This document shows positions 11,216 through 46,433 of a stretch of DNA of 64,000 nt, piece after piece (the first letter of the stretch is position 1; each line of letters begins with the position of its first letter). The DNA lies in contig JAFCMP010000412.1 of assembly GCA_017506865.1 (NCBI GenBank), positions 558,001-622,000 of the forward strand. Direction: 5' to 3'. A program made the position numbers and the translations under genes. The notes below the pieces were generated by a model. That model had not been told where the DNA came from. It saw nothing but the letters and a program-made list of their open reading frames with translations, and made no database searches. The stretch comes from Tribonema minus (taxonomy: Eukaryota > Sar > Xanthophyceae > Tribonematales > Tribonemataceae).

Positions 11216-12181
11216 ATGCGGCTAGTTTGGTGGGTGGGCTGGGCTGCAGGGCTTGCAGGAGCTAGCACCAGCGGCCCTCAGGTGATGCCAGTGTGCGTAG
11301 CTCCTTCGAGAGAACTTCAAACGTGTGGTGGTGTCTCGGAAGCCCTGGCTGGCGTGCGGAGGAGGGACAGGCAGCGGCTTGGCGTGCTTGGAGAGCAAGC
11401 GGAGTCGGCTGCACGCCACGGCACTAACCACAAGTTACTCGCAGCGGTATATGGCAATATCTTGTCAGGCTTGCAGCCTGCGGTGAGCCGTGACCTCGCT
11501 CATCAAGGAGGCGATGCTTTACTTAGTTATGTAGCCTTTCTCTCTAGCGTCAGCGCCTGGCGCCCAGTGACTCCCTCTGCTTATCTCTATGATATCGGGG
11601 TTCACGTAGATAGCCACAATCTCCAGTTCAGGGCCCATCATGGTGACCTTGGCCTGCATGAAAACTTTGAGATGGAGTCTGCGTGGAGCTGGGTGGCCCT
11701 TAGAAGGGTCTGTCTGTGGGGGGAGAGTCTTGCAGCTTTGTTTGGTATCCCTGCTAGTGTGTGGGGGACAGTCGCTTGCGGATGCTTTGTTGGGGGTGAT
11801 AGGGGGGGGCCGGTGAACCACCGTCCTGCTTATCAAGGAGGCAATGCTTTGCTTAGTTATATAGCCTTTCTTTCTAGCGTCAGCGCCTGGCGCCCAGTGA
11901 CTCCCTCTGCTTATCTTTATGATATCGGGGTTCACGTAGATAGCCACAATCTCCAGTTCAGGGCCCATCATGGTGACCTTGGCCTGCATGAAAACTTTGA
12001 GATGGAGTCTGCGTGGAGCTGGGTGGCCCTAAGACGGGTCTGTCTGTGGGGGGAGAGTCTTGTAGCTTTGTTTGGTATCCCTGCTAGTATGTGGGGGACA
12101 GTCGCTTGCGGGTGCTTTATTGGGGGTGATGTGGGGGGCGGGGTGTGGCGTGCAAGCTTTGCATGCTACATCCAAGAGTGA
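11216..12181 (+). CDS. Open frame with two 110-codon repeats, status unsure
   Basis: This 321-codon frame is not recognised. Its second half is built of two direct repeats (about 11500-11810 and 11830-12140) offset by exactly 330 bp, so the duplication keeps frame. By eye about a dozen bases differ. In this frame most changes are synonymous (for example AGG to CGG, CTT to CTA) or conservative (V/I, V/M, A/V), while the mirrored minus-strand frame gains stop codons, which favours this strand. The encoded segment is hydrophobic and aromatic, with repeated motifs YLYDIGVHVDSHNLQF and VCLWGESL. There is no signal peptide or known domain that I can name. It may be a young lineage-specific gene, a piece of one, or a repeat that happens to be open. 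The minus frame has ELEIVAIYVNP, loosely like LINE endonucleases, but is interrupted. Confidence 0.35.
   Translation: MRLVWWVGWAAGLAGASTSGPQVMPVCVAPSRELQTCGGVSEALAGVRRRDRQRLGVLGEQAESAARHGTNHKLLAAVYGNILSGLQPAVSRDLAHQGGDALLSYVAFLSSVSAWRPVTPSAYLYDIGVHVDSHNLQFRAHHGDLGLHENFEMESAWSWVALRRVCLWGESLAALFGIPASVWGTVACGCFVGGDRGGPVNHRPAYQGGNALLSYIAFLSSVSAWRPVTPSAYLYDIGVHVDSHNLQFRAHHGDLGLHENFEMESAWSWVALRRVCLWGESLVALFGIPASMWGTVACGCFIGGDVGGGVWRASFACYIQE
11500..12140. repeat. 330-bp tandem duplication
   Basis: Unit 1 starts at about 11492 and unit 2 at about 11822; each matches over about 310 bp with roughly a dozen mismatches, so the duplication is recent. The period of 330 is a multiple of three. Confidence 0.9.
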
Positions 12182-25869: not shown

Positions 25870-28800
25870 TCACTCGCTGTCGCTGCTGAGATCCACGACG
25901 CCGTCGCTGCCGCTGTCGTCCGAGTCGGCGTACCTGACGGCGGCACGCGCGCGCGCGGGCCTGCTCGCCGCCGCCGCGCCGCCGACGTCGCCATCGCTCT
26001 CGCTCTCCTCGCTATCCGCCTTGCGCGCCTTGGCCGCCGCGGGCTTCTTAGCCGCCGCCTTTTTCTCACCGCCAGCGCCAGCCTTGGCCTTCGCGGGCGC
26101 CTTCTTCGATGGGGGCTTTGCAGCCTTTGGCGCAGCCTTGGGCTTCGGCGCGGCCTTGGGCTTCGGCGCCGGCGCGGCGGCAGCGCCGTCGTCATCGCTG
26201 TCGAGGTCGACCGGCGCGCTGCGGCTGCCGCCGCCGCCGCCCGCGCGCGGCTTCTTGGCTGCGGGCGCCTTGCCCTTGGCGTTCGCGGGCGGTGCGGGCG
26301 GCATTTTGAGCGTCAGCGTGGACGGCTTCCGCACCACCGCCACCGCGTCGCTGTCGCCACCGTCGGAGTCCATCGCGACGGCGGCGCGCTTCGCCGCGGC
26401 CTTGGGCTTGGCGACGGCGGCGACGCTCTGCTTCTTGGCGGCCGCGGCGGCGGCGGACGGCGCCTTCTTTTTGGGCGCCGGCTTGGCGGCGGCGAAGGAC
26501 GCGTCGCTGTCGCTGCCGCTGTCGCCTTCGCCAGCCTCGCTGCCGAACGCCTCATCCAGGTCGTACAGGTCCACGGCGGGGGCGGGCTTCGCCTTGGGCT
26601 TCGCAGCAGCGGCGGCGGCGGCAGCGGGTTTCTTGGCCGCGGGCGCCTTCTTTGCGGGCTTGGCGGGGACGTCGCTCATGAAGTCGTCGCTCTCGTCGCC
26701 GCCCTCGCTGCCGCTGAGGTCATCCTCCGCCTCCGCGGCAGGCGCAACGGCAGCGGCCTTGGCTTTCGCCGCAGCGGGCCTCTTCGCCGCCGGCGCCTTC
26801 TTCGGCTTCACCTCGCTCATGAACGCATCGCTGTCGCTGCCGCTGCCGCCGTCGCTGAGTTCCACCTCCATCTCTTTCGCAGCGGCGGCGGCGGGCTTCT
26901 TCTTGCCTGCCGCGGTCGCCTTCTTGACAGGCTTGGCGGCGCCGAAGTCGCTCTCGAACGCGTCGCTGGCGTCGCCGCCGTCATCATCACTGCCGCTGTC
27001 GCTAGCGCTGCCGCCATCGCTCTCACCGTCAGAGCCGTCGTAGTACTTGCGCGAGGGCGCGGCCTTGCGCGTCGCCATCACGCGCTCCCCCGCGCCGTCC
27101 CCCCCCTCGCTGCCCGACGACTCGTCCATCGAGTCATCCACCTCGCGCCGTGGCGCCTTCGCGGCCGGCTTTGCCTTCCCCTTCGCTGCCGCTTTGGGCG
27201 CCGCCGGCTTGGCAGCAGGCTTGGCGGCGGCCTTCTTGGCAGCAGCAGCGGGCTTCGCCGCCGCCTTTGCAGCTGCCGCAGGCGCCTTCGCCTTCACCAC
27301 AGCAAGGTCCTTGAAGATGTCGTCCGCGTCGTCGTCGTCCGTCGCGCAGAACGCAAACTTGTCTGCCGCCGCCGCGGCCCTAGGCCCCGCGGCAAGCTTT
27401 GCCTGCATGCGCGCCGCGAGGCTCTGCACCACGTCCTCCTCCTCCTCCTCCCCCTCCTGCGCAGCAGCAGCAGCTGCAGCGGCGCTCGGCTTCTTGGCCT
27501 TCGCCTTGACGGCCTTCTTAGCTGCGGGCGGCGGCGGCAGCACGGCGAACAGCGTCCGCCCCTCCTCCGCGCTGCCCCTGCCGCCAATTTCATCGTCGTC
27601 GTCCAGCGCGATGACGTCGTCGTTTCCGTTGTCAACTTCAACTTCACTGTCGTCGCCGCCGCCGCTGCGTGTGCCTGCGGCGCGCAACGCCACAACCGCC
27701 GCCGCCAGGTCCAAGGCCTCGCGCTTGCGCGCACTGCCAAACTTGCCCTGCGGCAGCAGTCAGGACCAGGAGAAATGACATGGGTCAGGGCGTCTATGTG
27801 TAATTGCGTTACAGGACAAGTGTGCTATGCAGGGTGTGGGCGGCCCATATGCGTGCTGCTGCAAAAGACACTGCTACAAAGACGCCGCCATCGGCATGTC
27901 AAGGTTTCTGGCAAACAGCCCTGCGTTGGAACGGGGGAACCACGCTATTACTGCTGCGGTTCCTTCTTGGCACACATCTACTGACCCAGATTCGTAGCTC
28001 ATTGGCGCCTGACTTGGGGTGGCTTGCCGAGATTTGCATGTCATGCATATGGGCATCAGCAACGTGCTTGCTTCATGATGTCGCACACCACCAGACTTGT
28101 CATTATGACAGTGTATGCACCACGGCGTCCACATTGCGTTTCAACTGCATAGGCTTCAACAAGCGGCGCGCCATCTGCGCAAGCGCTACTCAGCGCCCTT
28201 GGCTGTGCAGTGACGTGCCACCACGCCGCCCACAAACTTCTCGTGTGACGCGCCGTGCGCAGTGCCCCTCAGCCAAGCATGTACTTGTCTCTGCTGTGGC
28301 ACCGGCACACAACCCACGAACGTTCATCTGCACACAAGCTCCCACCTGCGCCACAGCCGCCGCGAATGCCTCGGACACCTTGACGCCGCCCTCAATCTCC
28401 ACCTCCGTAGAGCGCGAGTGAACGGCGGGGGTCGGGGGAGGGGGCCCCACGGGGGGCGCCCTCCCCTTGTTCTTCTTGGATCGCTTGTGGGGAGTCTGCG
28501 ACTCAAAGTCTGAGTCGTCAGAGTCGGCGGCGCGCTTGCGCCCGCCCTTCTTGGTCTTGCTGGCGCCGCCGCCGCCCCCCTTGCCGGCGTTGCGGCGCTG
28601 CTTGGACTCCGCCCTGGCGTTCTCAATGTGCATGTCGTCCACGGCATCCAGCGCCTGTGAGGACGCAGGGACAAGACATAGTTCAACTTGAAGTCCAGCA
28701 CGATGCACCTTGCCGATGGCGTCGAAGTGGTGTGCAGCAGCGCGCAACACAGACAATGCCAGCGCTCACCGGCGCTCGCATGCTTGTTGAGCGCGGCCGC

Positions 28801-31800
28801 AGGCGAGCACTGCCACATGCAACAGCAGCGCTCAAGCCCTGCTGATCGCAGCCACAGACGACAGCAGCAGCGCTCGACACGCACCTCGCCGGCGGCGTCC
28901 AGGTTGCGCAGCCACAGGTCCGACAGCAGTGCTCAACACAGAAAACGCCAGCGCACGCACCAACGCGCGCGCGCTTGCTGAGCTCGGCCGCAGGCGAGCA
29001 CCGCCACATGCAACAGCAGCGCTCAAGCCAGGCGGCAGCAGCGCTCGACACATACCTCCCCTACGGCGTCCAGGTCGCGCAGCCACAGGTCCGACAGCTC
29101 CATCGCGCGCAGCTCCTCCATCTCCTGCTTCTTGGCCGCGAGCTCCGCCAGCAGCTTCGCCACCACCTCCTTGGTGAGCGTCCACAGCTTGAGGCCCAGG
29201 AGGTAGTCGTAGCCCTTGGCGAGCGCTGCCGACTCCGAGTCGGAGTCGTCGTCCGAGGCGGCGGCCGCGTCTGCGCGCGGGGGCGATGTGATGCGGAGAG
29301 CGAGTGAGGCTCTACATAGGCTCTGCGCCGCGTTTGTATACTTCGAAGTATACATGTTCGTGTGCATGTAGCTTGAGCGAGATGGGGGTTGGCTGGGGGT
29401 GAATAAAGATTGTGAAGCGCGTGGAACATGCAACGCGCAATGACATGTATACTTCAGAATATATGCACACGTGTGCTTGGTAGCACCCATGTATGTACGT
29501 GAGACAGTACACGCGGTGTCAATTCTCGCCTTCGTCGCCCTTGTCCTCCGCCTTGGCCTTGCAGCCCATGCCCTTGGCAGCACACTCGGGTGACTTCATA
29601 ACGTACACGGACATGCATACTTTGAAATATATGCACAAGCGTGCTTGGTGGTGCACATGTATGTGTGACATAGCACATCGTGTTATTTGAAAACTCTTTT
29701 CTTGCCTTCGTCTCCCTCGTCCTCCGCCTTGGCCTTGGTGCCCACACTCTTGGCGACACTCTCTGGTTAATAAGATACACTAAAATGTATACTTCAAAAC
29801 CATTGCACATGTGTGCTCCGTATTATGTATGTACGTGTTGCATTAATTTCTCACCTTCGTCTCCCTCGTCCTCCGCCTTGGCCTTGGAGCCCACGCTCTT
29901 GGCAGCGCTCTCGGGCAGCAGCGGGTCAAAGCCGTCCGCGCGCAGCTGCGCCAGCAGCTCCGACTTCTTGCGGTTGCGAACTTCAAGTTTACCCTGCACC
30001 ACCGCCACCACAAAGCGCACCTGCGGCGCAGCGCCGGCGTCATTCAGTAACGTTTCATGAGAGCCTGACGTTGGCTTTGGTTTCTGAGGTTTGGCCGCGG
30101 ACGTCGAGTCGGTTGCTGCGGCGCGGTGCACTGTGCCGATGGTGACTGAGCATTGCAGTAAGGTCGGGGTTCGTTTCCTTGACAACAACCTCAAGTGACC
30201 TGCAGCGCGGTGCGTGCAGAGTTTAACGTTGCGCTGATGACTGCGGCGCCGACAAGCGCTGCTGCGGGCGACGGGAGTTGAGCACTGTGCTGATGACTGC
30301 AAGGAAAATGTGTGCGTGCTGAGCAATGCAGCGGGCGCCGAAGCTGAGCATTGTGCTGATGTGAAGCCATGCGACCGCACACACGCTGCAGGGTTTGGCA
30401 CCCCGCCTGCCGCACCGAAGAAGTCCATGCAGTAGACGAAAGTAACAGAGTTCATTGCAAACTGTACTGTGAAGCACTTGGCAGAGGTCTGTTGGCATCA
30501 GTGGTATTCTGCGAGGAGCGCGGCTGCTGGTATGAAAGCAGCCGACGCTAATGCAGGCTACTTGAAAGCACACACCTAAAAGAATTTGAGCGACTGCAGC
30601 AAATGACACTTCAATGCAGGTGCGCACAAACCTGTTTCCTTGTACAAGGGTGAGTGAATGAGGGTGCGTCGGACCCATTTCGAATGTCAACACAAATAGA
30701 GCACCTGCACAAGAGTGACGACCATGTTTTATGGGCTTATTCAGCATGTCATACTCCTGCCAAATGCAAGGGGGCTCTCAGCCAGGCAGTAAGTGGCCGC
30801 TGAACCACCACTACATGGTCGTGGATTTGAAGCTAATACCACCTAAGTAAACATAACATGCCTCAGTCACCGCGGCTCACCTGCGGACACACCTGAAACT
30901 ACCACTGTCGCGAGCGCTTGTCAAGAACATGACTTCAAGTCTATATGACAACATCAAGTCAATGACGCCCCAGTGCTCACCTTGTTGTCCAGCCGCATCC
31001 ACTCCTTCTGCATGCGCGCGAGCAGGTGCTCCTTGCGCATGCCGTAGTGGCGCAGCCTTAGGTCGTAGAACTCCTCCATGATCTGCATGCCGTGTACGCA
31101 TCGTAATGGGGGTTTGAGTGAAGGTGCATGTAATCATGCATGTGAATTGTGCCCGTGCGCGTATGTGCACATATTTCCCGGGGGGGGGGCGTGGTTGTGT
31201 GCAACAACGAGGTGTGTGTGTGTGCTACAATGATGTGTGTGTGTGTGTGTGTGTGAGTGTAGACGCGTATGTATGCAGCAACGACGCGCCGGAAACCAAG
31301 CACGAACACGGGTACAGGCATTACAATAGCTGGCGTAAATGCCTTTTTCCTTTTGAGAGCCCAACAATTAACGACGCACGCACCTGCAGCGGCGACTTGT
31401 ATCGCGCGATCATGCCCGTGTTGTCAACTTGCACTTCAAGTTCAACAGTGTGGTCAAACGTCTACATCAAGCTCAACTGGAGACGCGCGCGCGCACCTGC
31501 AGCGGCGACTCGAGCGCGCAATCATGCCCGTGTGGTAAAACTTGCACGTCAAGTTCAATAGCGTGGTCAAACTTGTACTTCAACTTCAACAGGTGACGCG
31601 CGCGCGCACCTGCAGCGGCGACTCGTAGCGAGCGATCATGCCCGTGTTGTCGAACAGCGTCATGTTGGTCTCCGCGAGCGTCGTCTCCAGCTTGAAGAAC
31701 TTGGACAGCCCCCCGGGCTGCTGCTCGATGGCATCCAAATCCGATTTGTCCATGGTGATCGTGAAGTGAACCGTGGTGTCCGTGTGGTTCTCCCTGAAGT

Positions 31801-34800
31801 CCTTGATGTGGAAGCGCGGCTTGGCGGCGGCCTTGGTGGGGGACTTATTGTCGGCGTCGTCACCGTCCTCATCGTCCTGCCAGTGCGCAAGGGAGTACAG
31901 GTACAGTACAGTACAGTTTAAGTACAATTACAATTCAGTTGCAGTTCACTTTGAGTTCACTTGCAGTACAGTATGGTACAGCTGTACACGAGGAGCTGAG
32001 CAACTGAGCAACGTCACAGAAGTAGCAATGGTTGAGATCGAAACGTACTTCATCTCTGATATTTGCTCTATCAGCCACGCTTGGTTTGCCCTAATTCTTA
32101 CCCCATTCCCAACCCTTGTCAAATGCTATTGACTCCGCCAAATGCTTATACTCAAAATGAAACCTTCATTCATTGCAATGATTTGATCATATAAGATGTT
32201 GTCCCACATCTGCTGCCTTCGTGTAGGGCTGCGTTCACCTCAGCATACTCAAAAGCATGTAGTCAACGCTTCAGAGAATATGCCTTGTATGTATGCCTTG
32301 TATGTATACATACGCACACGTCCACGGCCATTTGGACATGTGTGTAGTAGATGTGTGTGGCTGTGTGTATTATAATCACCAATCACCACTCACATCTGCG
32401 GCCTTTGCCTTCTTCTTCTTGGGCGCCGGCTTGGCGGCAGCCTTGCCCTTGGTCCCAGCGCCCGCTTTTTCCTTGGGATCGGCACCCGCGATGAGGCTCT
32501 GCAGCAATGCACAATCACAAGCAGGAGGGGTAATGAGGTGAGCGACAGGGGGGCTGAGTGGCATTCCAGTGGAGACTGCAGGGGGGGGGGTGGGGGGCGG
32601 GGGGGTCCTTCACCTGGCATTCCACGCCCGTCATGTGAAGCCGATGCGCGATTCAGGGTCCTGTGGCAAGTACTAGTTCCTCGTGTGCAAACCTCAATCG
32701 AATCATGGTGTCCCTCGTCTGCTTCTGATGAGCGTTGCCATGCATGGCCACGCTGCTGAGCATCAGCACCAGCGCAGACACACTGAGGTCTACATACGGT
32801 ACAGTGTCTGCCTGTGACGCGTGTGAACTAAGGTCGCCGACCCCACGCCTCTTGTTCACCCCAATTCCTGCAGTGCGTGGTGGTCCTGACCATTCTCATT
32901 GACAGACCTGACCTAATAAGCGCCTGCCCCTCGACTGCACCTCCACGTGGTACCGCCTTGCACCATGTATTTTACTTCAGAGTATGAGATCGTGAACACC
33001 TAATTCTAACCCTAACCCAGGAGCATCCCCTGCAGCCCCCCTGGCTGTTTGATGCAGCATGCCCTCAAAGCCCCACTCGCATCGCACACTTGAAGTAGCT
33101 TTTGTCGCTGGTGACTCACCTCCAGGAACGCCCTGCACCTCCCAGGACGCATTATCACACACTTGAGGTAGTACTTGAAGAAGCAGTCAATTTGCCAGTG
33201 ACGCACCTCCAGGAACGCCGTTTAGTCCTGCGTCCACTTCTTGACCCTAACCCCACTGCAGGAGCATCCACTGCAATCTGTCTGTCTCATGCCGAAGATA
33301 CCCTTGTGTCGCACACTTGAAGTAGCAGTTGTCGCTGGTGACTCACCTCCAGGAACGCCTTGTAGTCCTGCGTCCACTTCTTGACGGGCAGCTCCGTGAT
33401 CTCCAGCGTCTCGTCGCCCGTGCGCTCCACGATGCCCTCCACCGTGAAGCTGGAGCCCTTGGCGCCGCCCGCCTTGCGCGCGATGGTGCCGACAAAGCCC
33501 CTGCGGAGCGAGAGAGGGAGAGGGCGCGCAGTTGCAGAAAAGTGAAAATCCATGAAAATTCATACTCAACCTACTGAACTCAACGCTAACCCTGAGTAGT
33601 CCGCAGCGATGGTGTCAGCGCAGTCGCACATGCTGCGGGTACGTTCCCAGCTTGCACGCTATTTGGCGTGCACGAATGTGGTTAGCTCTTGGTACTGGGT
33701 TGACGACTCACGTATGGGCATTGTCACATCCCGTTAAGAGCCGTCAAGCCCCCGCGACGAGAGAGCGCACAGTCGGAGCTCCAGTGAGCCCTCGCGCTTG
33801 ACCCAAGAAGTCCGAGATATGGTCTCAGCACACCACACAAAGTGAAGCAGTGCGCGACGGCTGATGGACAGAGCGCAGTCGCGGGACGCAGTGAGCACTG
33901 GCGCGTGAAGCAGTTACAAGATGCAGTCAGTACACCTAATGTACTGATAATTACAGCAGTGCACAACAGTTCACACAGCAAACCCGCGGTATGCTCCACA
34001 GCATGATTTCATCAGTACACAATGTGCACCGGAGCAGTGCAGCGATGAAAACTAATTGGCGCCGCCAGCTGCGCACGCACGAAGCTGCCAACGCAGCCAA
34101 AGTGAGACACTGCAGCTGGTCGGACCATGACCAAGGGCAGGGAAATAGCCCACCTGTACCACGCCCGCATCTCTACCATAAGCTGCCCACAGATGCAACA
34201 CTGTAGCTGGTCAATCTCGATGATCAACACTGTAGCTGGTCAATCTGATTATATTTAGATCTTTTGATTCGTCTCCATCAAGTAGTAAGCCCACCTGTAC
34301 CACGGCTGCATCTCCACCATGGGCTGCCCGCGGATGCGGCGGCGCAGGTTCTCCATGACGTCGCGCGGCGAGTAGTTGGGCACGCCGCTGCTCCATCCGG
34401 TGCCTGCCATCGGCAACAGTAACGCGACAGTTACAGAACCACTGGCGGCGGCGCGTGTCAGCGGCGGCACTGTGGCAGCGAGTGTGCTGTCGCCCGAACT
34501 GAGCAAAGCCGCAAGGTGATGGTATGGTAACCAAGACAATCATTTTAACGGCAATGGCGTAGGCAGCGCGAGTGTGCTGTCCGTCAAGCTGAGCAGGGGC
34601 TTGCTAAGTTAGCATGGGTTTGCTAGTATGGGTTCATAGTCTAACAACACAACAATCGTGACCGGCAGTGGTGCACACTACGATGGAAGGGAGAAGAAGA
34701 TGATGCCGGTGATTGATGAAGTTGAAGTTATTTTCAATTTATTTCGGCTGCTGCTCATTAAGCTGTATATGATGCATGACGGCTGTCATACTTCCTGTTG

Positions 34801-37800
34801 TGCAGCAAAGCAATGCAAGACGCGCTTTGCGTCAGATCCGCAACTATCAGAACCAGGCAAGACGCCTCGAGCAGCTTCACGTTGAAGTTAAGCTACCGCC
34901 GGGATAAATGCCACTTCTCCCAAGCACAAGCAGGTGATGTCTGCACCAACTCCCCCCCTCCCCAATATTCAAATGGTGCTCTAGGTCATCTGCACCATCG
35001 AGCAGACACCTACAGCATCATGTGTCCATTGTTGACTACAAGAGACCCTGAAAGAGTATCATGAACATTTTGCGTTGAACAGACAGTTGGTGACATGTGC
35101 TGCTGCACGGCTACTTCTAACAGGCATGAATGAATGCCGATGCCCTCGGCGCTGTTGACGAAAACGAGCGGCAGCACCGGCACTTACTTCAACTTCAACA
35201 AGTACACAGTCTCAACTGTCATGACCATATATACTGATGCCCTCGGCGCCATTGATGAGGACCAGCAGCAGCACCGGCACATATTACAACTTCAACAAGT
35301 TTGTCGGTACTCAGTTATTGCCGACTTCAATGTTCAACAGGTATGTAGGTACGAAGTCATCAATCGACGTGACCATACATACCGATGCCTTCTGCGCCGT
35401 TGACGAGCACCAGCGGCAGCACCGGCACGTAGTACGCGGGCTCGATGGACATGCCGTCGTCGTCCAGGTAGGTAAGTATGGCGTCGTCGTCGGGGTGGAA
35501 GATGGCGCGCGCGACCTTGTCCAGCCGCGTGAAGATGTACCTGCGGGGGGGCACATTGGTGTTTGATTTGAAGTTAGGTGTTTGATTTGAAGCGAGGGCG
35601 ACGCTGAAGGTGTAGTTGTGGAGCGCGCAGCAGCGCTCACAACTGGGGCTGACGTCATTGTTATCTGGGCAACTGGCGAGCTTGGTGCCGCCACACGGCT
35701 CAGAGGTTCAGCCGCGTGAAGTTGTACCTGCAGGGGGGGGGGCACGTCAGTGTTTGAAGTTAGAGGGTGTGAGCGTTCTTCTGGCAGCGCCGGCGTTGGC
35801 AAAATACCCAGTAATTTTCCTGGACTTCGCCGGTTCCTTCATGGCGGCAGCTAGGGCAGTACCCTGAAGGTGTGCCTACATACCTACCAGGGGCACATGG
35901 CAGTGCTCAGAACTAGACGTTGCGCGGTGGCGTCGCCACGAGACTGAAAGGCGATAGATAAGAGTGCAAGATCGTCGAGTGTTAACTGCAGATCACAGTT
36001 AACACGGTGCTCGGCCGGTGTTGCGTCGCTGCCCCTTGGCTTGCCAGCCCTATCAGCCGAGCAGCGCTTCCACGGCAGCACATGCCAGCGCGGTCTGGTC
36101 ATCGAAGCCGGCCCTGTCCCTACGCTGAACTATATTCGCTGATCGCCAGGTTCTGGCAGTGTAGGGAGGTATTCTGGGTTGTGCTGCAAGGTATGCTGTG
36201 GGTAAGTATGCTTAGGTCGGAATGCGTGTCAATATTTTGGGTTGCGCTGCAGGTGTGCAGATAAGAGGTTGGAGTTGCGGGCTGGTACCTGGAAAGGCCC
36301 TGGTCCTTGCCACCCATGAGGGCGGGCGTCTTCAATTTTGATGCTGAAAGAGGAAACAGAGCACAGGGGCGCCGTGCCAGCATCCCTCAACTTTCTTGCC
36401 CATTCCGCTGAACATCACTTCTGGAAGTACTTCAAGTAAGATCATTTAGTACTTGGGCGAGGCCTGGTCCTTGCCGCCCATGAGGCGCTTGCCTCCAATC
36501 ATCAAGTTGACTTAGGAAACTGAGCACAGGGGCGCTGCGTCAGTATCCCTCAACTTTCCAGCGCATGCCACTGATCATCACTTATGTAGGTACTTCAACA
36601 AGTAAGTTACTTCAAGTAGGTACCTGGGCGAGGCCTGGTCCTTGCCGCCCATGAGGCGCGTGCCGAACTGCCCGCCGGGGTACAGCAGCGCGACGTTGTT
36701 GGAGCCGCAGTAGCTCTGCGCCATGGCGGTGATGGTGCCCGTCAGCGACACCTCGCCGTGGTGGTACGCCGAGTGCTCGCTCACGTAGCCCGCCAGTTGG
36801 GCAACCTGCGATTAGATTAGACACACCGTTGCAGCATGGTCATTTGCAATGTCAAACGGTCGATAGACATAGAGACACCTTTGCAGCATGGTCGCTCTAT
36901 CTGAGAACGTCGAACGGTCCAAGGACGCCACAGGAGCATGGCCACGAATGAAACCGCATATGATGCGCAGCGAGGCGTCGCCGTGGTGGTACGCAGAGTG
37001 CTTGCTCACGCAGCCCGCAAGTTGGGCAACCTGTCCACACACCGCTGCAGCATGGTCGCTTTGTGATGAAGGTGAACGGTCAAGTGGTGACGACAACATG
37101 AAACGGCCGATGCGTTGTGAACACCAAGGTTGCTTCTGCGGCGAGGCGCTTCATTGCGCAGAAATGATACATCAAGTGAGCGACTTGCATGGATTGCAGC
37201 ATGGTCGCTGTTGTGATGAAGGTGAACAGTCGGTGGATGCCGCAGTAGCATGGGCACAACATGCAACGGCCAACGCGTTGTGAACACCGAGGCTGATGCA
37301 GCAATGTGGTTGTCGGTGTTGCGTAGAAATGATACAGCAACTGAGCGACCTGCATGAACACCAGCGCGGCACAGTTACTCCAATATTCCCCTACGCAGGA
37401 CCGCTTCGTGTGTGCTCCCCGTGTGCGGAGGCAGCTCAGCGTGTAGTGTGACCACCATCATATGAGGCTGAGGGCGCTGCTGGCTGCTCCTATCCAAAAA
37501 AAAAAAGTGGTACCAGCAAACCCAGCCACACGCACATGCCCATATGGTGATGCCACTCAGCTGATCGTTGAGCGATGTGCACTTTTGAGACCCAAGACAT
37601 GCTCATGAGTGTATACCTTGCGCTAGTCGCTACTGATCATCTGGTCTCTTTGCAGTCCAATTGAGCACACATTGCTGAGCACAACTAGGCGGCACTGTAC
37701 ATACCTTGATCTCGTTCTTGAGCTTGCGCTTGAAGCACGCAAACAGGACTTTGCGCTGGCTCGGCTTGAGCCCGTCCACCATGCATGGCAGGGAGCGCTT

Positions 37801-40800
37801 GTTGTCCTCGATGGAGAACAGGATGAGCTCGCGGTTGAAGAAGGCGTCGTACGTCATGGCGTCCACGCCGTAGTCCACAAACGTTCCGGGGACAAAGTTG
37901 CGCAGCCACTCCTTCCTGCGCGGGGGGGGTGCGTGGGGGGGGGCGTGCGATGGAGGCAATTAGATATACGTTGAGGCAATTAGATATACGTTGGTGAACT
38001 TTATGGTCCTCAGCTTGCGCATACCTACACATGTACCTGCTTTCAGCATCAGCATGACCGCCACATGTACCTGTCTTCAGCTTGTGTACCCCTACACGCT
38101 CGTCTTCAGCGTGTGTGCACGCCCAACGTACCTGTCTTCAGTGCGCTGCTTGTTAAGGATGGAATGCCTGTCAGTGAGGGTGTGCATCCCTACATGCCTA
38201 CACCCCTGTATGCTTAGCATGCATACCTGCCTTCTGGCTGATGCCCGCCTCGAGCCGGCGCATACTTACTACGTGCCCGCTTTCAGCTTTGACACAACCT
38301 GCAGTACTTCAAAATCAATACGAAGCTGCCTTCAGCGCACTCCTTGATGGAGACGAGAAGCCCGTCGTTCAGCGTTGTGCATACATATATGTCTGTGCCC
38401 AGCTGATACAACCTACTTCAGAGTCCATACTTCAAGTACATACCTGTCTTCGGCGCGCTTCTTGTTGAGGACAGATGTGTGCACATACAATGTGCCCATC
38501 ATCATGTGTACACTTACAAACCCGTCTTGAACTTGTGCATACTTACCACAGTCCTTGCCTGACTTCAAGCTTGCCACAACCTGCGGTAGTTCACAGTGCG
38601 CACCTGTCTTCGGCGCGCTTCTTGTTGAAGACGAGGTCCACCATGTCGCCGTCCGCCGCGTCGTCGCGCCACTCAAACGGGATCTGGTGCTGGTCGAGCT
38701 TGGCAAAGTACTCCTTGGCCTCCTTGGCGGTGGACGTACCCAGACCCTTGTAGTACTTGATGGACCAGCCACGCTGCTGCGCGTGCGCCGCGCGCCACGT
38801 CTCGTACTCGGGCACAGTGAAGAAGCTGGGGGGGGGGGGGAGGGAGGGTGATGTGGAAAGCGGTTTCACAAATCATAACACGATGTGGGAAGCAGTTGCA
38901 CAAATCGTATAGCATTGAGAGGGCAGCGCTCAGCATGCCACGTCACGTGTTTGAGCACCGTGAAAAAGTCGAGGGGGCGAGCGGCGGTGGCGCTGTGCAC
39001 GGTCACCAAATGACGCACCCCTATCACCAACGGGCAGGCGCTGTAGCACGTGATGGTAGCCCGGCTGCACTGCTGCTCGTTGTACTCCAGCGCCACAAGG
39101 GCAGCACATGATCATGCGATGAGCGATGGACCGCTTGGTGGCAGATATACCTACCTGCACGCGGCCCCGTGCGCACGCACTTGGCGATGGCCGCCATGAA
39201 TGCGAATGGAGGCCTGTTACATCTGAGCATTGCTATGCGTTATACATACCCCGGCATACACCCCACAGCGCAGCGCTCTCCTCAGCTCGCGCCGCCCCCC
39301 GCGCACGCTTTGAATATAGGCATGACACGTCTGGAAGGAGCCTGCTATTTACGCGGCCCCGTGCACGCACTTGGCGATGGCCGCCATGAATGCGAACAGG
39401 AAGCCCGCTACATTGAAGCACTGTGATGCGCTATACATACTGCCATACCTACACCACCTGCCCGCGGCGCAGCGCTCACCTGAGCTCGCGCCCCGCACGC
39501 ACGCACTTGACGATGGGCGTGATGACCTCGAGTAGCAAGCCGGCTATATACATCGGAGCACTGCCCTACAGTACACCATACATACCCTGCCATACCCACC
39601 GAACCTAGCGCTCACCTCAGCTCGCGCCCCGCGCGCACGCACTTGACGATGGGCGTGATGAACTCGAGCAGGAAGCCCTCCACGCGCAGCAGCGACGGCC
39701 AGAAGTAGTGCAGCAAGTTGATGAGGAGGCCCTTGATGTGCGAGCCGTCGTGGTCCTGGTCCGTCATGATCATGAGGTGGCCGTAGCGCAGCGCGCGCGC
39801 GTCGGCGTACTGCGTCCCGAACTTGAGCCCCAGGATCTTGACGATGTTCGAGATCTCCTCGTTCTTGGACACGGCCGCGTGCGCGGTTTCGCGCACGTTC
39901 AGCGGCTTCCCCTTGAGGGGGAACACCCCGTAGTAGTCGCGGCCCACGACGCCGAGGCCGCTCACCGCGAGCGTCTTGGCCGAGTCCCCCTCGGTGAGGA
40001 TGAGGGTGCAGTCTTGGGAGTGCTTGGTGCCCGCAAAGTTGGCGTCGTCGAGCTTGGTGATGCCTGTGAGCTTGCTCGTCTTCTTGCCGCTCTTCTTGTC
40101 GAGCGCCTTGGAGGCCTGGAAGCTGGGGGGGGGGGGGGGGGGGGGGGAGGGGGTGCAACGCGGTGGGGGTTAGTGTCGGTGAAGGACGTGTACGAGAGTT
40201 GACGACAATCGACATTTGCGATCACCCAACACCATTGAACCAGTGACCTGCCAGAAGGTCAATGCGCAATTCACAGTAATGCTATGTTTCCGCAACATGA
40301 TACTTTGATTGGCATGCGGCCTTGAGGTCCTCGCTGATCCAGTCGCATGCGGTCATGACGAGCACGTACAGTCCGAGCGAATGAGTGAATGAGTATAATC
40401 CGACAAAATAAATAAAAGTGACCGTCGTTCCCCCCAGCTCACTTGGTGTACGCCAAGATGGCCTCCACGATGGGCGACTTCTCAATGGCCTTGAGCGCCT
40501 TGTCGCTGAGCTTCAGGTCCGCGCCACCGAACGCAGACGCCTTGGTGGTGAGCGTCTCCTTGCTCTGGCTGTCAAACGCGGGGTTCTCCACGAGCGCGTT
40601 GACGCACACGCATAGGTGGTTGCGCACGTGCACGGGTTTTACCTCCGTGCCCTTGGACTTCCTCTTGACGACCTGCACAGGGGGGGGGGGGGGGTAGGGT
40701 TAGGGTTGGCGTCAGCGGGGCGGCGATGGGTGCGATGGTGCACAGGTGCGATACGCCACACATATAGCAGCGACCTCGAGAGATGCGAACACGGGGGCGT

Positions 40801-43800
40801 GGGTGTGCTGGTATGTGTGTGCGCGACACGCCGCTGCGTCCGGGCGCCATTGCCGCTGCCACTGGCAAATGCAGTACCCCACCAATACTGCGTCACTGTA
40901 TGCGTATGCAGTGTACTTTGGGGCATACGCAATAGAAGTACGTGTACAGTACATAGAGGTAGAACATATAATCTGTACCTTGACAAGGCGCAGCACAGCG
41001 TGCTGCCCCTACATGCACAAGAGAGTCCAATTGATCTGGATGGTTGGCACTGCTTCAGTGCTACATCACCAGTGTGACAAGTGTCCACCACGGACAGAGA
41101 ATTGCAGCCATGTCGTTGCATTCAGACGTGGTGCTCACGCATGCATGAGACACCTAGATCAAGCGACCGGGCATAACGAAGGCTGCCCTATAGTATGTAT
41201 GTTTGCTTACCTTGACAAGGTGCGCCACAATCTGCTCCGCAATGTGCGTGACGTGCTGTCCGCCCTTGACCGTGCAGATGGCGTTGACAAAGGACACCTG
41301 CTGCAGCTGCCCGTCGCTCGGGCCGATGGCGATGTCCCTGCACAATACCATTGGCAAGGTAGGTAGGGATGCATCAGTTCATGAAATGGCGCAGTGTCGT
41401 TCACATGTGGTACGAATGCCTCAACGCAAACAGCAAACTTATGCACCAGTGGCAAGCAAGAAGATGATACCTTTGCACTTCCATGTATGATCTTGTTTGG
41501 CGTGTTGACAGCTTGCAACTTCACAGTGCCCATGAGGCAGCAACGATGCTCACCAGGCACAACAGTTTTCTTTTCAAGTTAAAACCACAAAAGACAAAAG
41601 TGAAGTACAAAAGAGACAGCAGTGCTCACCAGGTGCCGATGCGCTCATGCAGCACCAGATCGCAGAGATTCTCATACAGGGTCCTTGAAGCTCATTGGTG
41701 GGAGTGTCATAGGTGAAGTACAATCAGAGGCAGCAGTGCTCACCAGGTGCCAATGCGCTCGTGCAGCGCCAGGTCGCTGAGGCCCTCGTACAGGCTCAGA
41801 TAGTTGGTTGGAGTGCCACAGTTGCAGTACAATGAGAGGCAGCAGTGCTCACCAGGTGCCGATGCGCTCGTGCAGCACCAGGTCGCTGAGGCCCTCGTAC
41901 AGGCCCAGGTAGTCCTTGAAGCTCTTGACGTCCAGCTGCTGCTTGTTCAGGTACACCTGCCGCGTGGCGCGGGCAAGGCAGCGATTGCGCACGTCAGCTC
42001 TGATGCGTTCTGCTATGCATTTGTGTATGGGCGGCGTGGGCTAGTAAGGTGTGACAGCCGCGCAAACATGCAGAGCGGTGCCACGGTTGCACGTGCATTC
42101 ACAGCGGCAAAGTCTGGGGCGGGTATGCTGCCCCACAATTCTTGCAAGAGCGCCTTCCAGGTCCGGCCAGGTTCATATGAAATGCTTCCATCATGAACAC
42201 GAGTGATTGGTACGGATGGCAAAGCTTGCCGAGGGGTGGTGATGACCTGGCGCGTCAGGGGTCCCTGACAGCGCCCTGCGTGACATCATGTTTATGACTT
42301 GTTCATATACATGCATCATGGCTCAGTCACTGGATTTCTGCCACCATAAATTGCCACTTGTGCGCACGCAGGACTCTGCGCCACAAGGGGTTTGTCACAG
42401 GTTCTCGCCCGCCTGCCGCAGTAGGTGCTGATGCCAGCAGTGGCGAGCCACACAGCTGAGCTTTGACTTGACGTCACCCGTTCAACGCCGCGCGCGCGCT
42501 CGTGCAGCAGCGCCCTCACGTCATCGCTACCACGGCCGCACCATCATAGCGTCGCTGGCAGACGCTGTACTCGTCGCGCAGCGATCAACCAATGCTGCGC
42601 AGCACCGTCACGATATTAGCCCGCACGCGCTTGCCGCCGTAGGTGCTCATGCAGCCCGCAATGTCGTGCGCACGCTACTGCGGCGTCGCTGACAAACGCT
42701 GCACTCATCGTGCCGTGCTGAACCAATGCCGCGCACTCACCCGCACGCGCTTGCCGCCGTAGGAGCTCATGCAGCCCGCAATGTCGTGCGCGCGCTTCTG
42801 CAGCAGCGCCTCCGTATCGTCCTCCATCCCCGCCATCCCGAAGCGGCGCCAGTCCGGCTTGAACGTGATGCAGGTGAACTCGTCGCCGCTGCGGCAGCAG
42901 CAGGGGGAAGACCAAGAAGCGTTCCGTTTAGAATCATAGAGTGCAAGTGGGACGGCGTAAAAGTGGTCTTGGACAGGTGTGCCCGCCGTGCCTTGCGGCG
43001 CGCTTGCAGTTCACCAAAAACATACTACAGTAGGTAGCACAAATAACATACTAGCGTGCTGCAGTGCGGTCGCTCGCAGAGGCACAAACCCGCCCGCGAG
43101 AGCGAGCGACGCGTTCGTGTGACACCGCGTCAGCGCCTTGCTAGGCACCCCACCATCTGCCTGTGAGGCAAACACGCAAGGGGCCGGTATGTGTCGAAGA
43201 ATGCACCGAAGCGCTCTCACGCGCACGCCGGCAATTGAAGAAGCGCTGCTCATCATGGACCACCCGTAGCCATCGGCGCTTAGCCCACGCAGGTCAGCGC
43301 GCACAAAGGGCAACACTCAGGCGAGCGACAAAGGCATGTCAACTTCAACTCACTCGTAGTCCTTGATAACCGGCTCGTCCTTGTCCCCCATGTTGTTCCT
43401 GAACACCTGGCGGTAGCGCTTGCGCGTGGCGCCGTCCGCCGTCTCCACGACAAACTCCGTGGAGAAGATGTTGGCCAGCTTGGCGCCGTAGCCGTTGCGC
43501 CCTCCGGTGGTCTTCTTCTCCTGGTCGTTGAAGTTGCTGCCTGCAGCGCATCGAGATCCACAACAGAATATTAATCAGAAGGCTGATGTTCTCGGGACAC
43601 TCAGCACCAGCCAATATCAATGCTGCCAAAACGTGGTGAGCACATGAGTAGCTGCACAAAGCTGCTTGGGCGGCATTCCCAAAGCACTTCTTCTTAAAAA
43701 GCATATATTGCTGACATGAAAAGCTGCAATCGATTATGATTTAGAGTGCGCAACTGAACAGGGAGGATTCGGCACAGATCAGCAGCGTGTGGCGCGATCT

Positions 43801-44842
43801 ATCTCCAGCCATCAGCGCTCAGCGCTCCACACGCGCGCGACGCTCACCTGTGAGGAGGTGGCCAAAGATGAGTTCCGGGATGTAGCAGCCGTGCTCGGCG
43901 TGGCGCGCGATGGGGATGCCGCGGCCGTTGTTCCACACGCTGATGGACCCCGCGGCCTTGTCCACCGTCACCTTGAGCATGGTCATGGTCGGGTCGCGCT
44001 GCTTGTTGTCGGCGGCGTTGACGATGATCTCATCGAAGATCTTGTAGAGGCCGGGGACGTAGGAGACGGACCGCCGGACGATGCGCGACGTGTCGGCGTC
44101 GAAGACCCACATGTCCGCCGTGTTGCGCTCGATGGAGCCGACGTACGTGTCCGGGCGCAGCAGGATGTGCTCGAGCTGCGTCTTCTTCTGGTAGATGTCC
44201 TCGATCTTGCGGCCGCCGATGGTACGCACCTATACAGAAAATTTCAGGGGGGTGAGGGTGACGGAGTTGATTCGCGATGCATAGCAACGGCGAGTGCTTG
44301 TGGAGGCAGTAGCATGGCTCGGCATGACTCTCGGTGCAGTTGACCCTGAGCATGCAGCAAGAACTGTTTGAATTTCCAGTTCACACACCGCCAAGCCACA
44401 GCGCATGAGAAGCATGGTAGGCTTAGCCATTGTACTGAAATTGGCAAAAGGCAGGGCACTGGCTAAGTGACGATATCTCATCAATATGAGCTGGGAAGCT
44501 GATCCCCCCGCAGCCCCGAGCACGTTCTTCTGCTAGTTCAACAAACCGTGAGTAGATCGACCGTACCTCTTCTTCGCCGCCCACGCCGGCAATAGGAGCC
44601 TTCTTTTTCGCCTGAGCCGCCTGTGCACATAGCAGAAGAGGTGCGTTCTGAGGTCTGAGGCCTTTCGCATCGTTCGCAACAGCAAGCAGAGAAGATGCCA
44701 ACGATGATCATAAAAGCTTTTCATGGAGAGTGCTTCGACTCCTGGTGACGATGTGCGCCTGAGACGAAGCAACCTTTGCACTTACCGCAGTGCCCTTATT
44801 GGTGCCCGGCATCCTGTTTTCTCGCTCCAGAGCCGTCGTCAT
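25870..44842 (-). CDS. TOP2: DNA topoisomerase II, complete, 22 exons
   Basis: Exons: 44842-44786, 44620-44567, 44229-43848, 43540-43354, 42888-42741, 41956-41853, 41337-41211, 40672-40443, 40122-39616, 38825-38604, 37915-37705, 36805-36624, 35540-35383, 34403-34295, 33500-33347, 32498-32394, 31876-31610, 31082-30981, 30020-29855, 29270-29056, 28654-28346, 27747-25870. All junctions are GT-AG and phases agree, giving 1957 residues. The nuclear type IIA enzyme passes one DNA duplex through another using ATP. Seen in order: GHKL ATPase ([32 protein letters not shown]; the QTK-like region), TOPRIM ([23 protein letters not shown]), breakage-reunion domain with [15 protein letters not shown] (tyrosine near residue 805), then WLVGML-equivalent helices. 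From about residue 1333 a 625-residue tail alternates acidic SD-rich and basic KAPAAKKP blocks, far longer than the usual tail. The start is the first of two in-frame ATGs. Confidence 0.95.
28700..28935 (-). repeat. TOP2 intron 20: copies of exon 20 end
   Basis: The end of exon 20 ([14 protein letters not shown] and donor) recurs at 28884-28932 as [14 protein letters not shown] with GTGCGT, and weakly at 28700-28735. About 60 bp of following intron sequence (GCAACAGCAGCGCTCAAGCC) is copied too. Confidence 0.88.
29443..29850 (-). repeat. TOP2 intron 19: tandem units of exon 19 end plus intron
   Basis: The end of exon 19 ([16 protein letters not shown]) and about 90 bp of following intron recur as units whose exon parts are at 29695-29767 and 29521-29588. 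Each unit carries an ACATGTATACTTC-like motif, so the duplication clearly spans the splice site. Confidence 0.9.
31378..31533 (-). repeat. TOP2 intron 17: two copies of exon 17 end
   Basis: The end of exon 17 ([13 protein letters not shown] and donor) recurs at 31487-31533 and 31378-31425, each beside a CTTCAAGTTCAA-type intron motif. Confidence 0.88.
33105..33245 (-). repeat. TOP2 intron 15: two copies of exon 15 end
   Basis: The end of exon 15 ([12 protein letters not shown] and donor) recurs at 33195-33245 and 33105-33140. The preceding CACACTTGA-GTAG intron motif is copied too, so the unit spans the junction. Confidence 0.88.
34147..34196 (-). repeat. TOP2 intron 14: copy of exon 14 end
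   Basis: The end of exon 14 ([12 protein letters not shown] and donor) recurs about 144 bp downstream with scattered changes. Confidence 0.85.
35131..35285 (-). repeat. TOP2 intron 13: two copies of exon 13 end
   Basis: The end of exon 13 ([16 protein letters not shown]) and donor recur at 35222-35285 and 35131-35187. Confidence 0.88.
36288..36490 (-). repeat. TOP2 intron 12: two copies of exon 12 end
   Basis: The end of exon 12 with its donor ([11 protein letters not shown]) recurs at 36449-36490 and 36288-36327. This is the exon edge just before the catalytic tyrosine. A copy of the exon 13 start with its acceptor lies at 35697-35733. Confidence 0.88.
36966..37290 (-). repeat. TOP2 intron 11: copy of exon 12 start and intron repeats
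   Basis: 36966-37033 repeats the start of exon 12 with its acceptor ([18 protein letters not shown]). Further up, two units at about 37045-37135 and 37200-37290 share GTGATGAAGGTGAAC, CAACATG-AACGGCC and GCGTTGTGAACACC blocks. Confidence 0.85.
38128..38473 (-). repeat. TOP2 intron 10: three copies of exon 10 end
   Basis: The exon 10 end (FNKKRAED and donor, plus-strand ACCTGTCTTCGGCGCGCTTC at 38602-38621) recurs at 38442-38473, 38325-38358 and 38131-38163. Two keep the donor dinucleotide. Confidence 0.88.
39150..39540 (-). repeat. TOP2 intron 9: three copies of exon 9 end
   Basis: The end of exon 9 (ITPIVK to GRELR and donor, 39616-39675) recurs at about 39480-39540, 39270-39412 (split) and 39150-39205, with growing divergence. 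A fragment of the start of exon 10 (FFTV-E) also recurs at about 38930-38975. Confidence 0.88.
40974..40998 (-). repeat. TOP2 intron 7: short copy of exon 7 end
   Basis: The final CTTGTCAAG and donor of exon 7 (41211) recur here as CTTGTCAAGGTACAG, 235 bp downstream. Confidence 0.65.
41533..41800 (-). repeat. TOP2 intron 6: three copies of exon 6 end
   Basis: The end of exon 6 plus its donor (CACCAGGTGCC at 41850 on the plus strand) recurs at 41741, 41627 and, more degraded, 41551. The first two copies include about 60 bp of exon sequence and retain the GGTGAGC donor. Confidence 0.9.
42595..42690 (-). repeat. TOP2 intron 5: copy of exon 5 end
   Basis: The last about 70 bp of exon 5 (coding for [17 protein letters not shown]) are repeated about 110 bp downstream. 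The donor GT of the copy is changed to GC. A weaker second copy lies at about 42409-42500. Confidence 0.85.
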
Positions 44843-45212
44843 GGCGTCACTCGCAGGACTGCTTTTCTTGGTGGCCTGCGCTTTTAGATTTCAAGAGGAT
44901 AGCTTCTGGCTGTAGAGAAGGTGGCACTGAGATGGCAGGGTCGCTACGCCTCTCCTGCGCAACTCCTCACTCTCGCCTCGCCGCTCCCGCTCCAGCCCTG
45001 CAGGCTCGCTCCTTCTGAGAGAAAATGAAATGGGCTCGACAAATTAATTGATCAACGCCAGGACAAGGCACAGAGGGTTGGTAGGGTTTGACTTTTTTAT
45101 TCAGTCCAAAGCAAATTGAAGCTTGCAAGCAGCAGCAGCGGAGCTTTGGCGCATCAGAGTTGCAGATTCATCCTCCCAGCGCCGCCGTTGAGCCTTCTTC
45201 ACTGGCGTCAGC
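44843..45212. promoter_or_regulatory. Shared TOP2/BUD31 promoter region
   Basis: Only 370 bp separate the two divergent start codons, so both promoters and 5' UTRs must share or overlap here. I see no clear TATA box. Confidence 0.55.
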
Positions 45213-46433
45213 ATGTCTCGGTTCGCCCGGAAAGAGCGCCCTCCCGCAGGCTTCGAGATCTTGGAGCCCACCCTCACGGCGCTGGAAGCAGAGCTGAGAG
45301 AGAAGGTGAACCAGCCGCATGAGGGGCTTCGGAGGGGCGAGAGCCTGTGGCCAGTGCACCAGATCAACTGGCAGCGCAGCCGCTACGTGTACGACATGTA
45401 CCACGTCTACAAGGAGATATCGAGGGAGGTGTACGACTACTGCATTCGGATGAAGCTCGTGGATGCTGGCCTCATGGCCAAGTGGAAGAAACCTGGCTAT
45501 GGGCGCCTTTGCAGCACCTACGTCATCAACCCCAAAAACTACAAGTTCGGCACGGTCAGCATCTGCCGGGTGCCCCGCCAGTTTCTTGAGCCCGACACAG
45601 TCGTGGAAGACTCCAACACAGGGTGCAGAGGATGTGCCAGCGGGCCAGGCGGCCAGCGAAACATCTTCGGCAACAAGTACGGGCAGTATCTGGCAGCCAT
45701 TCAGGTGGCGCGAAAGAAGCGCGCGCTGGAAGAAGAGGCGCGGCGAATGGTTGGCAAAGGCAGGGAGAAAGCCAGAGCGGAGCGGGAGGACAGCGAAGGG
45801 GACGAAGACAGCGAGGACGAGGAGGCGGGCATTTGGGCGCAGAACGAAGAGGAGGCAGTGCTAGGACCCGGCGATGATGTGCAGGTGAGCAGGCTTGCGG
45901 TACACACATAGATGGCACAGATGTGGGAGGGTACACCAGGAAACTCTAGCGTTCAAGGCGACAGGCTCACTTCAGCCTTGGCTCAGCAGTGAGCAGCACA
46001 TTCTCATTCTGTGTGCTCCCCAGCGATGCTCCCCTGTTGATGCGCACACAGAGCGGTTTCTGATCATTGCATTGGACATAACCGCACCCCACCTTCTGCT
46101 GTCATCGCAGACAGCTCACTGGCACATGGTGGTACCTTTTTGTGATCTCCGACAGTTGCTTCTAGAGTGCAGCAATCGCCAGGCAGCACAATCATCGCAC
46201 AACATGCGTTGCACTGGGCCGAGTTGCTGCCAAAGGTTTAGACTAGTGCTTGATGCAGTCTTGTTGCCTGCGTTGCAGCGTGGACTACTGACTGCCGTCA
46301 CGTTTCTCGGCATTTTGTGCACCTGCAGGGGGACGTGGAGGCGGACCGTGAGGCTAAGAAGTTCCTGACAAAGCGCGGCGGCGAGTTTGGCGCAGGAGGA
46401 GGGTCCAGCGATAAGCGGCCACGTCACGCGTAG
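45213..46433 (+). CDS. BUD31: BUD31/G10 splicing factor with extended C terminus
   Basis: Exons 45213-45884 and 46329-46433 give 258 residues. The first about 145 match BUD31, a spliceosome component: EPTL, PHEG-R-ESLWP, the RYVYDM-Y---ISRE-Y-YCI helix, AKWKK-GY, FGT and ICRVP, ending GCRGC. Family members end there at about 145 residues; this one adds about 110, first a helical KKRALEEEARRM segment, then an acidic EDSEGDEDSEDEE stretch and a basic end. By comparison with the family, five of nine zinc-region cysteines are replaced (the LCC-x2-C, N-C-IC and EC-x2-C positions), leaving four. A changed zinc site, or a paralog of the canonical protein, is therefore likely. Start chosen at the ATG before SRFARKERPP. 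Confidence 0.88.

Follow-up and report, generated by a model that had tools for sequence, protein, structure and literature searches.

Unlike the origin of introns, their lengthening is rarely visible in sequence, and the gene for DNA topoisomerase II (TOP2) of the xanthophyte Tribonema minus raises the question of whether the steps of such lengthening can be read from introns that still exist. The gene lies in a stretch of 64,000 nucleotides (GenBank assembly GCA_017506865.1, contig JAFCMP010000412.1, positions 558,001 to 622,000 of the forward strand), here called the window. An initial annotation of this stretch had claimed that at least 13 of the 21 TOP2 introns contain degraded copies of the neighboring exon ends together with their splice sites, and had set these copies beside models of intron gain by tandem duplication. 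TOP2 is of the eukaryotic type and occupies positions 44842-25870 of the window on the minus strand; Pfam recognized HATPase and Toprim domains in its product. The exon map, guided by alignment with human TOP2A, has in its final form 22 exons with an open coding sequence (CDS) of 5,874 nt and 21 introns, all GT-AG, which range from 165 to 1,083 bp and sum to 13,099 bp; many exon ends read AG/GT. This homology-based model was used throughout, and the call that our own gene finder made for TOP2 was set aside.

Exon-edge copies in the introns of TOP2

The introns of TOP2 do contain copies of their own exon edges, and the statistical support for this is strong. Comparison of the window with itself, a check that the initial annotation had proposed, resulted in 50 direct repeat pairs less than 3 kb apart, as against 3 direct pairs farther apart, 4 inverted pairs nearby and 3 inverted pairs far apart. 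In the edge test, 60 nt of exon edge were aligned to the adjoining intron and the score was compared with those obtained from 20 other introns and from 100 dinucleotide shuffles. The donor side (last 60 nt of the upstream exon) beat all controls in 11 of the 21 introns (5, 6, 9, 10, 12, 13, 14, 15, 17, 19, and 20), and four introns (9, 11, 12, and 14) were positive on the acceptor side, tested with the first 60 nt of the downstream exon; of these, intron 11 alone scored strongly (46), and introns 9, 12, and 14 reached only 18-19. With a second control set of 50 shuffles and 50 foreign intron segments, donors were positive in 12/21 introns and acceptors in 4/21. Exon edges thus match their own introns better than shuffled or unrelated ones. 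The far edges of the same exons gave no matches (0/15 and 0/16), and neither did the reverse strand on either side (0/21 each); a foreign intron used as a null also scored 0.

Taken together, the donor and acceptor sides make 12 of the 21 introns positive, while the other nine fail the edge test. The claimed figure of at least 13 is therefore solid for 12, the thirteenth, intron 7, being borderline: it ties with the shuffle maximum (15 vs. 15) and passes the second controls by a single point (15 vs. 14). The predominance of copies from the upstream exon and its donor was described correctly for this gene, as were the acceptor copies in introns 9, 11, and 12, to which intron 14 is now added. 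We cataloged 29 copies, 24 donor-side and 5 acceptor-side (Table 1), and donor copies lie 67-194 bp apart, close to the 75-200 bp given previously. To call the introns filled with copies was too strong, as detectable arrays account for 3,786 of the 13,099 intron bp (29%). Array-bearing introns are longer than the others (mean 741 vs. 467 bp, one-sided P 0.009), and Tandem Repeats Finder reported three arrays in TOP2, with periods of 109, 113, and 163, each starting inside an exon.

Geometry, order and decay of the copies

The first-copy units in TOP2 (n = 11) measure 109-171 bp, of which 29-69 nt are exon, with a mean period of 142 bp; their periods show no bias to multiples of three (5/11). 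Across all genes examined, 27 first copies have an exon part of 24-111 nt (median 43, with 21 of the 27 within 29-69) and a period of 87-384 bp (median 152). The share of the unit that is exon departs from uniform, with P 5e-5 for the 27 copies and P 0.04 for TOP2 alone. A hand-picked subset of 19 (TOP2 11, HSP90 5, GyrB 2, and a fimbrin-like gene 1) gave P 0.014; the eight first copies outside this subset belong to other predicted genes and have an exon part of 24-102 nt and a period of 152-384.

Nine TOP2 introns carry at least two donor copies, and in eight of these the copy nearer to the exon is the less diverged from it, the remaining case being a tie. Over 404 shared columns, first copies differ from the exon at 40 and second copies at 84; the two copies disagree at 96, and 12 changes are common to both. 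That the nearer copy is less diverged fits repeated duplication at the exon edge. The earlier statement that copies diverge with distance holds in this form, but raw identity drops with distance in only 8 of the 13 successive copy pairs.

Decay was examined in 24 junction-spanning copies (17 from TOP2, 7 from HSP90), a choice that favors kept splice sites. The exon part of the copies showed an identity of 0.88-0.90 and the intron part one of 0.78-0.79, so that exon-derived positions diverge by 10-12% and intron-derived ones by 21-22%; the GT had an identity of 0.875, and positions +3 to +6 had 0.82. The GT was kept in 42/48 positions and +3 to +6 in 79/96, compared with 556/617 for exon positions -30 to -4; splice-site bases in these 24 copies are not conserved above their neighbors. 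Twice the divergence in the part where neither copy is constrained, together with the lack of any GT excess, speaks for neutral decay of the copies, with the GT preserved no better than the adjoining copied exon. The mismatch rates by codon position (0.167, 0.147, and 0.196) indicate that the copies are not evolving as coding sequence.

We hold it probable, at about 0.78, that small tandem duplications spanning exon edges have occurred again and again and lengthened existing introns, with the copies then decaying neutrally. Duplication across the junction, as the initial annotation had it, is well supported by the features of the copies, which occur at their own site rather than as a dispersed family, in direct orientation, with head-to-tail spacing, and with the intron flank copied along. 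In TOP2 the left end of the 109-171 bp unit lies 29-69 nt inside the upstream exon and its right end in the early intron; at some acceptors the geometry is mirrored. If the cell uses the first donor, the original donor would still be spliced and the mRNA would remain unchanged, so that the duplication would be tolerated. The newest copy would adjoin the exon and older copies would be shifted deeper into the intron, all of them decaying neutrally. A duplication at an acceptor would put a functional acceptor, followed by some exon sequence, in front of the real exon, and such an extra acceptor may be more harmful, which would leave donor copies outnumbering acceptor copies. As for the molecular event, fill-in repair of staggered breaks is a candidate, and exon edges may be its preferred sites.

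Table 1. Exon-edge copies and arrays in the introns of TOP2 (window positions, all on the minus strand; a slash marks the exon-intron junction)
Intron	Intron positions	Edge	Array or copies	Identity	Remarks
5	42740-41957	donor	array 42410..42689; copies 42621-42689, 42477-42555, 42410-42461	91/82/77%	three copies
6	41852-41338	donor	tandem array 41600..41913; copies 41744-41804, 41630-41697		period about 109; begins 61 nt inside exon 6; both copies keep GTGAGC
9	39615-38826	donor	39157..39541		four copies
9		acceptor	39035-39096, 38928-38968		both matches weak
10	38603-37916	donor	38132..38560		three copies
11	37704-36806	acceptor	36960..37030	89%	copy of first 74 nt of exon 12
12	36623-35541	donor	tandem array 36284..36664; copies 36454-36493, 36295-36327	98%, 94%	period about 163
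12		acceptor	35706..35727	91%	short copy, 22 nt; CTGCAG/GTA
13	35382-34404	donor	35138..35287		two copies
14	34294-33501	donor	34154..34223		CAG/GTGGGC kept
15	33346-32499	donor	33006..33245; copy 33207-33245	95%	also a shorter second copy
17	31609-31083	donor	tandem array 31375..31655		period 113; two intronic copies
19	29854-29271	donor	29530..29766	90 and 89%	two copies; donors now GC
20	29055-28655	donor	28713..28927	91 and 72%	two copies

Edge arrays in other genes and the alternatives

The assembled genome comprises 158 Mb in 554 contigs, and our wider sample consisted of 153 kb from 16 places. Genes there were predicted by a small gene finder trained on TOP2, which regained all 22 TOP2 exons before retraining and predicted 23 after it; a per-base version was dropped for its excess of tiny exons, as was a second version that fitted TOP2 but merged genes elsewhere. 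Pfam recognized a domain in seven of the eight predicted genes submitted.

Edge arrays are not a peculiarity of TOP2: they occur in several unrelated genes, while other genes show little or none. TOP2 is extreme, with 12/21 donor-positive introns vs. 14/115 in 21 other predicted genes, in which acceptors were positive in 7/115. Four HSP90 loci gave 8/27 donors, 1/27 acceptors, and 0/41 far edges. A second cytosolic-type HSP90 (L032, G000:C379:402801-408500), which looks incomplete or decayed, has donor-edge copies. In five CCT/CPN60 loci, donors matched in 7/36 introns, acceptors in 5/36, and far edges in 0/43, with 10 of the 12 matches coming from a single CCT gene, L037, in which the finder took copies for exons and so distorted the model. 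Here (5371-6316 and neighboring exons) five copies, 90-97% identical and most of them preceded by AG and a pyrimidine tract, stand upstream of one exon start, and four further exon starts have one to three upstream copies each. The presequence of the plastid-type CPN60 encoded at locus L036 contains AFAP, similar to the motif of complex red plastids.

Edge arrays were also found in the GyrB gene, and a fimbrin-like gene with three CH domains (L019) carries a perfect 87-bp tandem duplication across a donor (5732-5905), the sole perfect case, with 0 bp of microhomology at the duplication junction. We read its unit as 74 nt of exon plus 13 nt of intron, although the finder drew only 28 nt of exon. 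The duplication process is thus recent or ongoing, unless this copy is an assembly error. In the pooled sample, which includes the distorted L037 model, donors were positive in 41/199 introns vs. 17/199 for acceptors (P 0.001), so that the donor bias holds for TOP2 and for the sample as a whole but is reversed in L037.

Whether exon edges are truly preferred over intron interiors was assessed from the repeat pairs. Those in TOP2 comprise 20 at donors, 2 at acceptors, 2 within exons, and 2 internal to introns (11 and 13), the last of which we read as copy-to-copy pairs of edge arrays. The location of all 11 of 11 arrays at donors has P of about 5e-9 under uniform placement, with arrays treated as independent and acceptors set aside. 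Simulated duplications of matching ages were found in 147/165 trials when placed in the interior of five array-free TOP2 introns and in 162/165 when placed at donors, with no false call in the nine array-free introns. GC skew at donors is mild (0.10-0.16). The edge preference is firm for TOP2 only; HSP90 supports it, and genome-wide it is a possibility.

Several observations weigh against growth by recurrent edge duplication or limit its reach. Gene models outside TOP2 are our own predictions. In the 21 other predicted genes the controls were not free of matches, with far edges at 0/64 and 2/65 and, on the reverse strand, donors at 3/115, acceptors at 3/115, and far edges at 1 and 0. Donor rates differ strongly among the HSP90 loci (4/6, with one at 15 vs. 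13; 0/6; 1/7; and 3/8), and the four CCT/CPN60 loci other than L037 have two donor matches in total, one of them at 14 vs. 13. In L037 itself, acceptor arrays outnumber those at donors, and more distant copies are not steadily less identical; selection would explain the donor excess elsewhere, yet these acceptor arrays show that such copies can persist. In TOP2 intron 17, 5 changes are common to the two copies, as would be expected of growth within the array, and exon positions -3 to -1 are slightly better kept than the rest of the copies (68/72, 0.944). Lastly, the other predicted genes have 25 intron-interior pairs, 8 of them from one locus, vs. 15 donor, 5 acceptor, 6 spanning both, and 28 unclassed pairs.

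These interior pairs are what would be expected if duplications arose everywhere alike and the conserved exon side merely kept the edge copies recognizable for longer, and the lower divergence of the exon side of the copies agrees with this as well. We nevertheless consider such an effect of visibility unlikely, though deserving of serious weight, as most simulated interior duplications were detectable and yet TOP2 has none apart from its edge arrays. Selection does not readily explain this lack of separate interior arrays in TOP2: either duplications begin by preference at or in exons, with survival limited to those at an edge, or chance has made TOP2 an extreme. A bolder extension of growth by edge duplication, which we put forward tentatively and at somewhat less than even odds, is that exon edges, and donors above all, are recurrent sites of duplications of about 140 bp, by which introns would grow in the manner of a conveyor belt, with the youngest layer nearest the exon and the layers datable by their order; this may be tied to the transcription or splicing of certain genes, perhaps highly expressed ones. 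Should the edge preference prove genome-wide, a mutational process coupled to exon boundaries would be indicated, and a natural set of duplicated splice sites would be at hand for testing donor choice. In many TOP2 introns the intermediates are still readable, and with them come the sequence in which they arose and a neutral clock; the false splice sites, while they look like neutral debris, record how introns lengthen.

The initial annotation had also described the copies as rows of decoy splice sites, and false donors might indeed be kept for recruitment of the U1 small nuclear ribonucleoprotein (snRNP), for slower splicing or for isoforms. A GT stands at the projected donor in 13 of the 24 donor-side copies, exon positions -3 to -1 are well kept, and AGGT inside tandem repeats is usable in human genes (PMC10809524). 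A functional role nevertheless appears highly improbable, since the GT and positions +3 to +6 are kept no better than the neighboring exon even among copies selected for spanning the junction, a selection that favors kept sites, and spacing has no frame bias.

We give only a very small chance to introners or other mobile elements as the material that fills the introns. In their favor is the orientation of the 7-mer TTGAAGT, which is biased to the sense strand in the first 100 nt of introns (28:12) and to the antisense strand near acceptors (7:19; P 0.0009), the kind of bias that terminal inverted repeats would show. Against them, other introns match an exon edge less well than its own intron does, and comparison of 199 introns, representing a small part of the genome, yielded 26 matches between loci. 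Most of these were short or weak, the best reaching 94% over 105 bp, with no TOP2 intron in the 25 of the 26 that were listed and no near-identical introns in unrelated genes. As a candidate mark of breakpoints, the motif or a near form lies within 40 nt of copy starts in 7/34 cases vs. 88/2,520 random places; no weight is placed on this difference, as copies inherit the motif from one another.

The Rogers model, in which an intron is gained when exon sequence containing AGGT is duplicated in tandem, has a smaller chance still at this locus. The model is well documented (PMC3443670) and many exon ends here are AG/GT, but the copies lie mid-intron with intron flank attached, further intron sequence separates them from the real acceptor, and no new intron running from one duplicated AGGT to the next was found in TOP2; the pattern is one of growth of existing introns and not of their gain. 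Least probable of all is an artefact of mis-joined long reads, for although the perfect duplication in L019, or one like it, might have arisen in this way, assembly errors would give near-identical copies, whereas those in TOP2 are 72-98% identical to the exon edge and their changes are mostly separate.

Some further observations were made along the way. TTGAAGT (palindromic form ACTTSAAGT), which occurs in TOP2 introns 12, 13, and 17 among other places, exceeds expectation several-fold in most sampled stretches. It is abundant (23 and 30 on the two strands) in tandem arrays with a 143-bp unit at locus L017 (G000:C300:20001-23065, positions 4-1790), a unit length close to the mean TOP2 period of 142 bp. 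An RNA stem between intron ends was considered and is unconvincing: 8-mer complementarity between an intron's own 5' and 3' ends occurred in 48/146 vs. a shuffled mean of 37.6, which is within the shuffled maximum of 50. The intron-rich TOP2 is directly adjoined by a gene for the splicing factor BUD31 in one open frame (window 45192-45911), and outside TOP2 the window has a 330-bp tandem repeat of two copies at about 94% identity (11481-12142). Interstitial TTAGGG-type repeats occur in the window (6217-6241) and at other loci. When the window and loci are counted together, with overlapping loci entering twice, doubles of TTAGGG number 18, and there are none of TTTAGGG or TTTTAGGG; along with the AFAP of the plastid-type CPN60, these repeats are a slight hint of an alga with a complex red plastid. 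A predicted gene at locus L013 (3859-6758), judged by eye from its translation, resembles a virus- or Polinton-type primase/helicase.

Relation to known systems

Human introns are reportedly linked with tandem arrays in the work of Zhuo et al. (2007), to judge by its title. An invasion by introners, as surveyed in PMC9860276 and described for Amoebophrya in PMC7789003, seems a poor likeness, as few of the 199 introns compared here match across loci. With respect to the molecular event, short tandem duplications result when staggered breaks are filled in and the ends joined (PMC8355091), a process expected to depend on Ku, CST, and Pol alpha-primase. Those duplications resemble ours in being short and direct, and such an origin would fit the clean junction of the one fresh case, in L019. 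The insertions described there are below 100 bp, in contrast to periods of 87-384 bp with a median of 152 here, recurring at exon edges.

The human UBC gene contains tandem arrays with dual-specific AGGT splice sites (PMC10809524), and the likeness is that every repeat unit bears a potential splice site. UBC units are coding and used, whereas the copies in TOP2 are decayed and intronic and their sites are candidates; UBC shows that use of copies of this kind is possible in principle. Intron gain following the AGGT model (PMC3443670, PMC2891723), along with the fission yeast and ATP2A1 cases recounted in PMC4974935, shares with TOP2 an intragenic tandem duplication by which splice sites are copied and which splicing keeps out of the mRNA. 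The difference is that in those cases an exon segment becomes a new intron, while here existing introns lengthen. The nearest single case that we found is the RNA-dependent RNA polymerase (RdRp) gene of potato, in which one duplication across an intron-exon boundary created an intron (PMC4974935). There too the duplication crosses an exon edge and splice signals are copied along, but it was a single event at an acceptor edge that yielded a new intron, as opposed to repeated events in many introns of TOP2, mainly at donors.

Among the matches listed in our literature search, which covered titles and the openings of abstracts and left subscription literature mostly outside, none reported that edge duplications recur across many introns of one gene, and this is weak evidence of novelty. 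Each element of the process is known from other systems, and what appears to be new is its recurrence at exon edges over many introns, with the least diverged copy lying nearest the exon.

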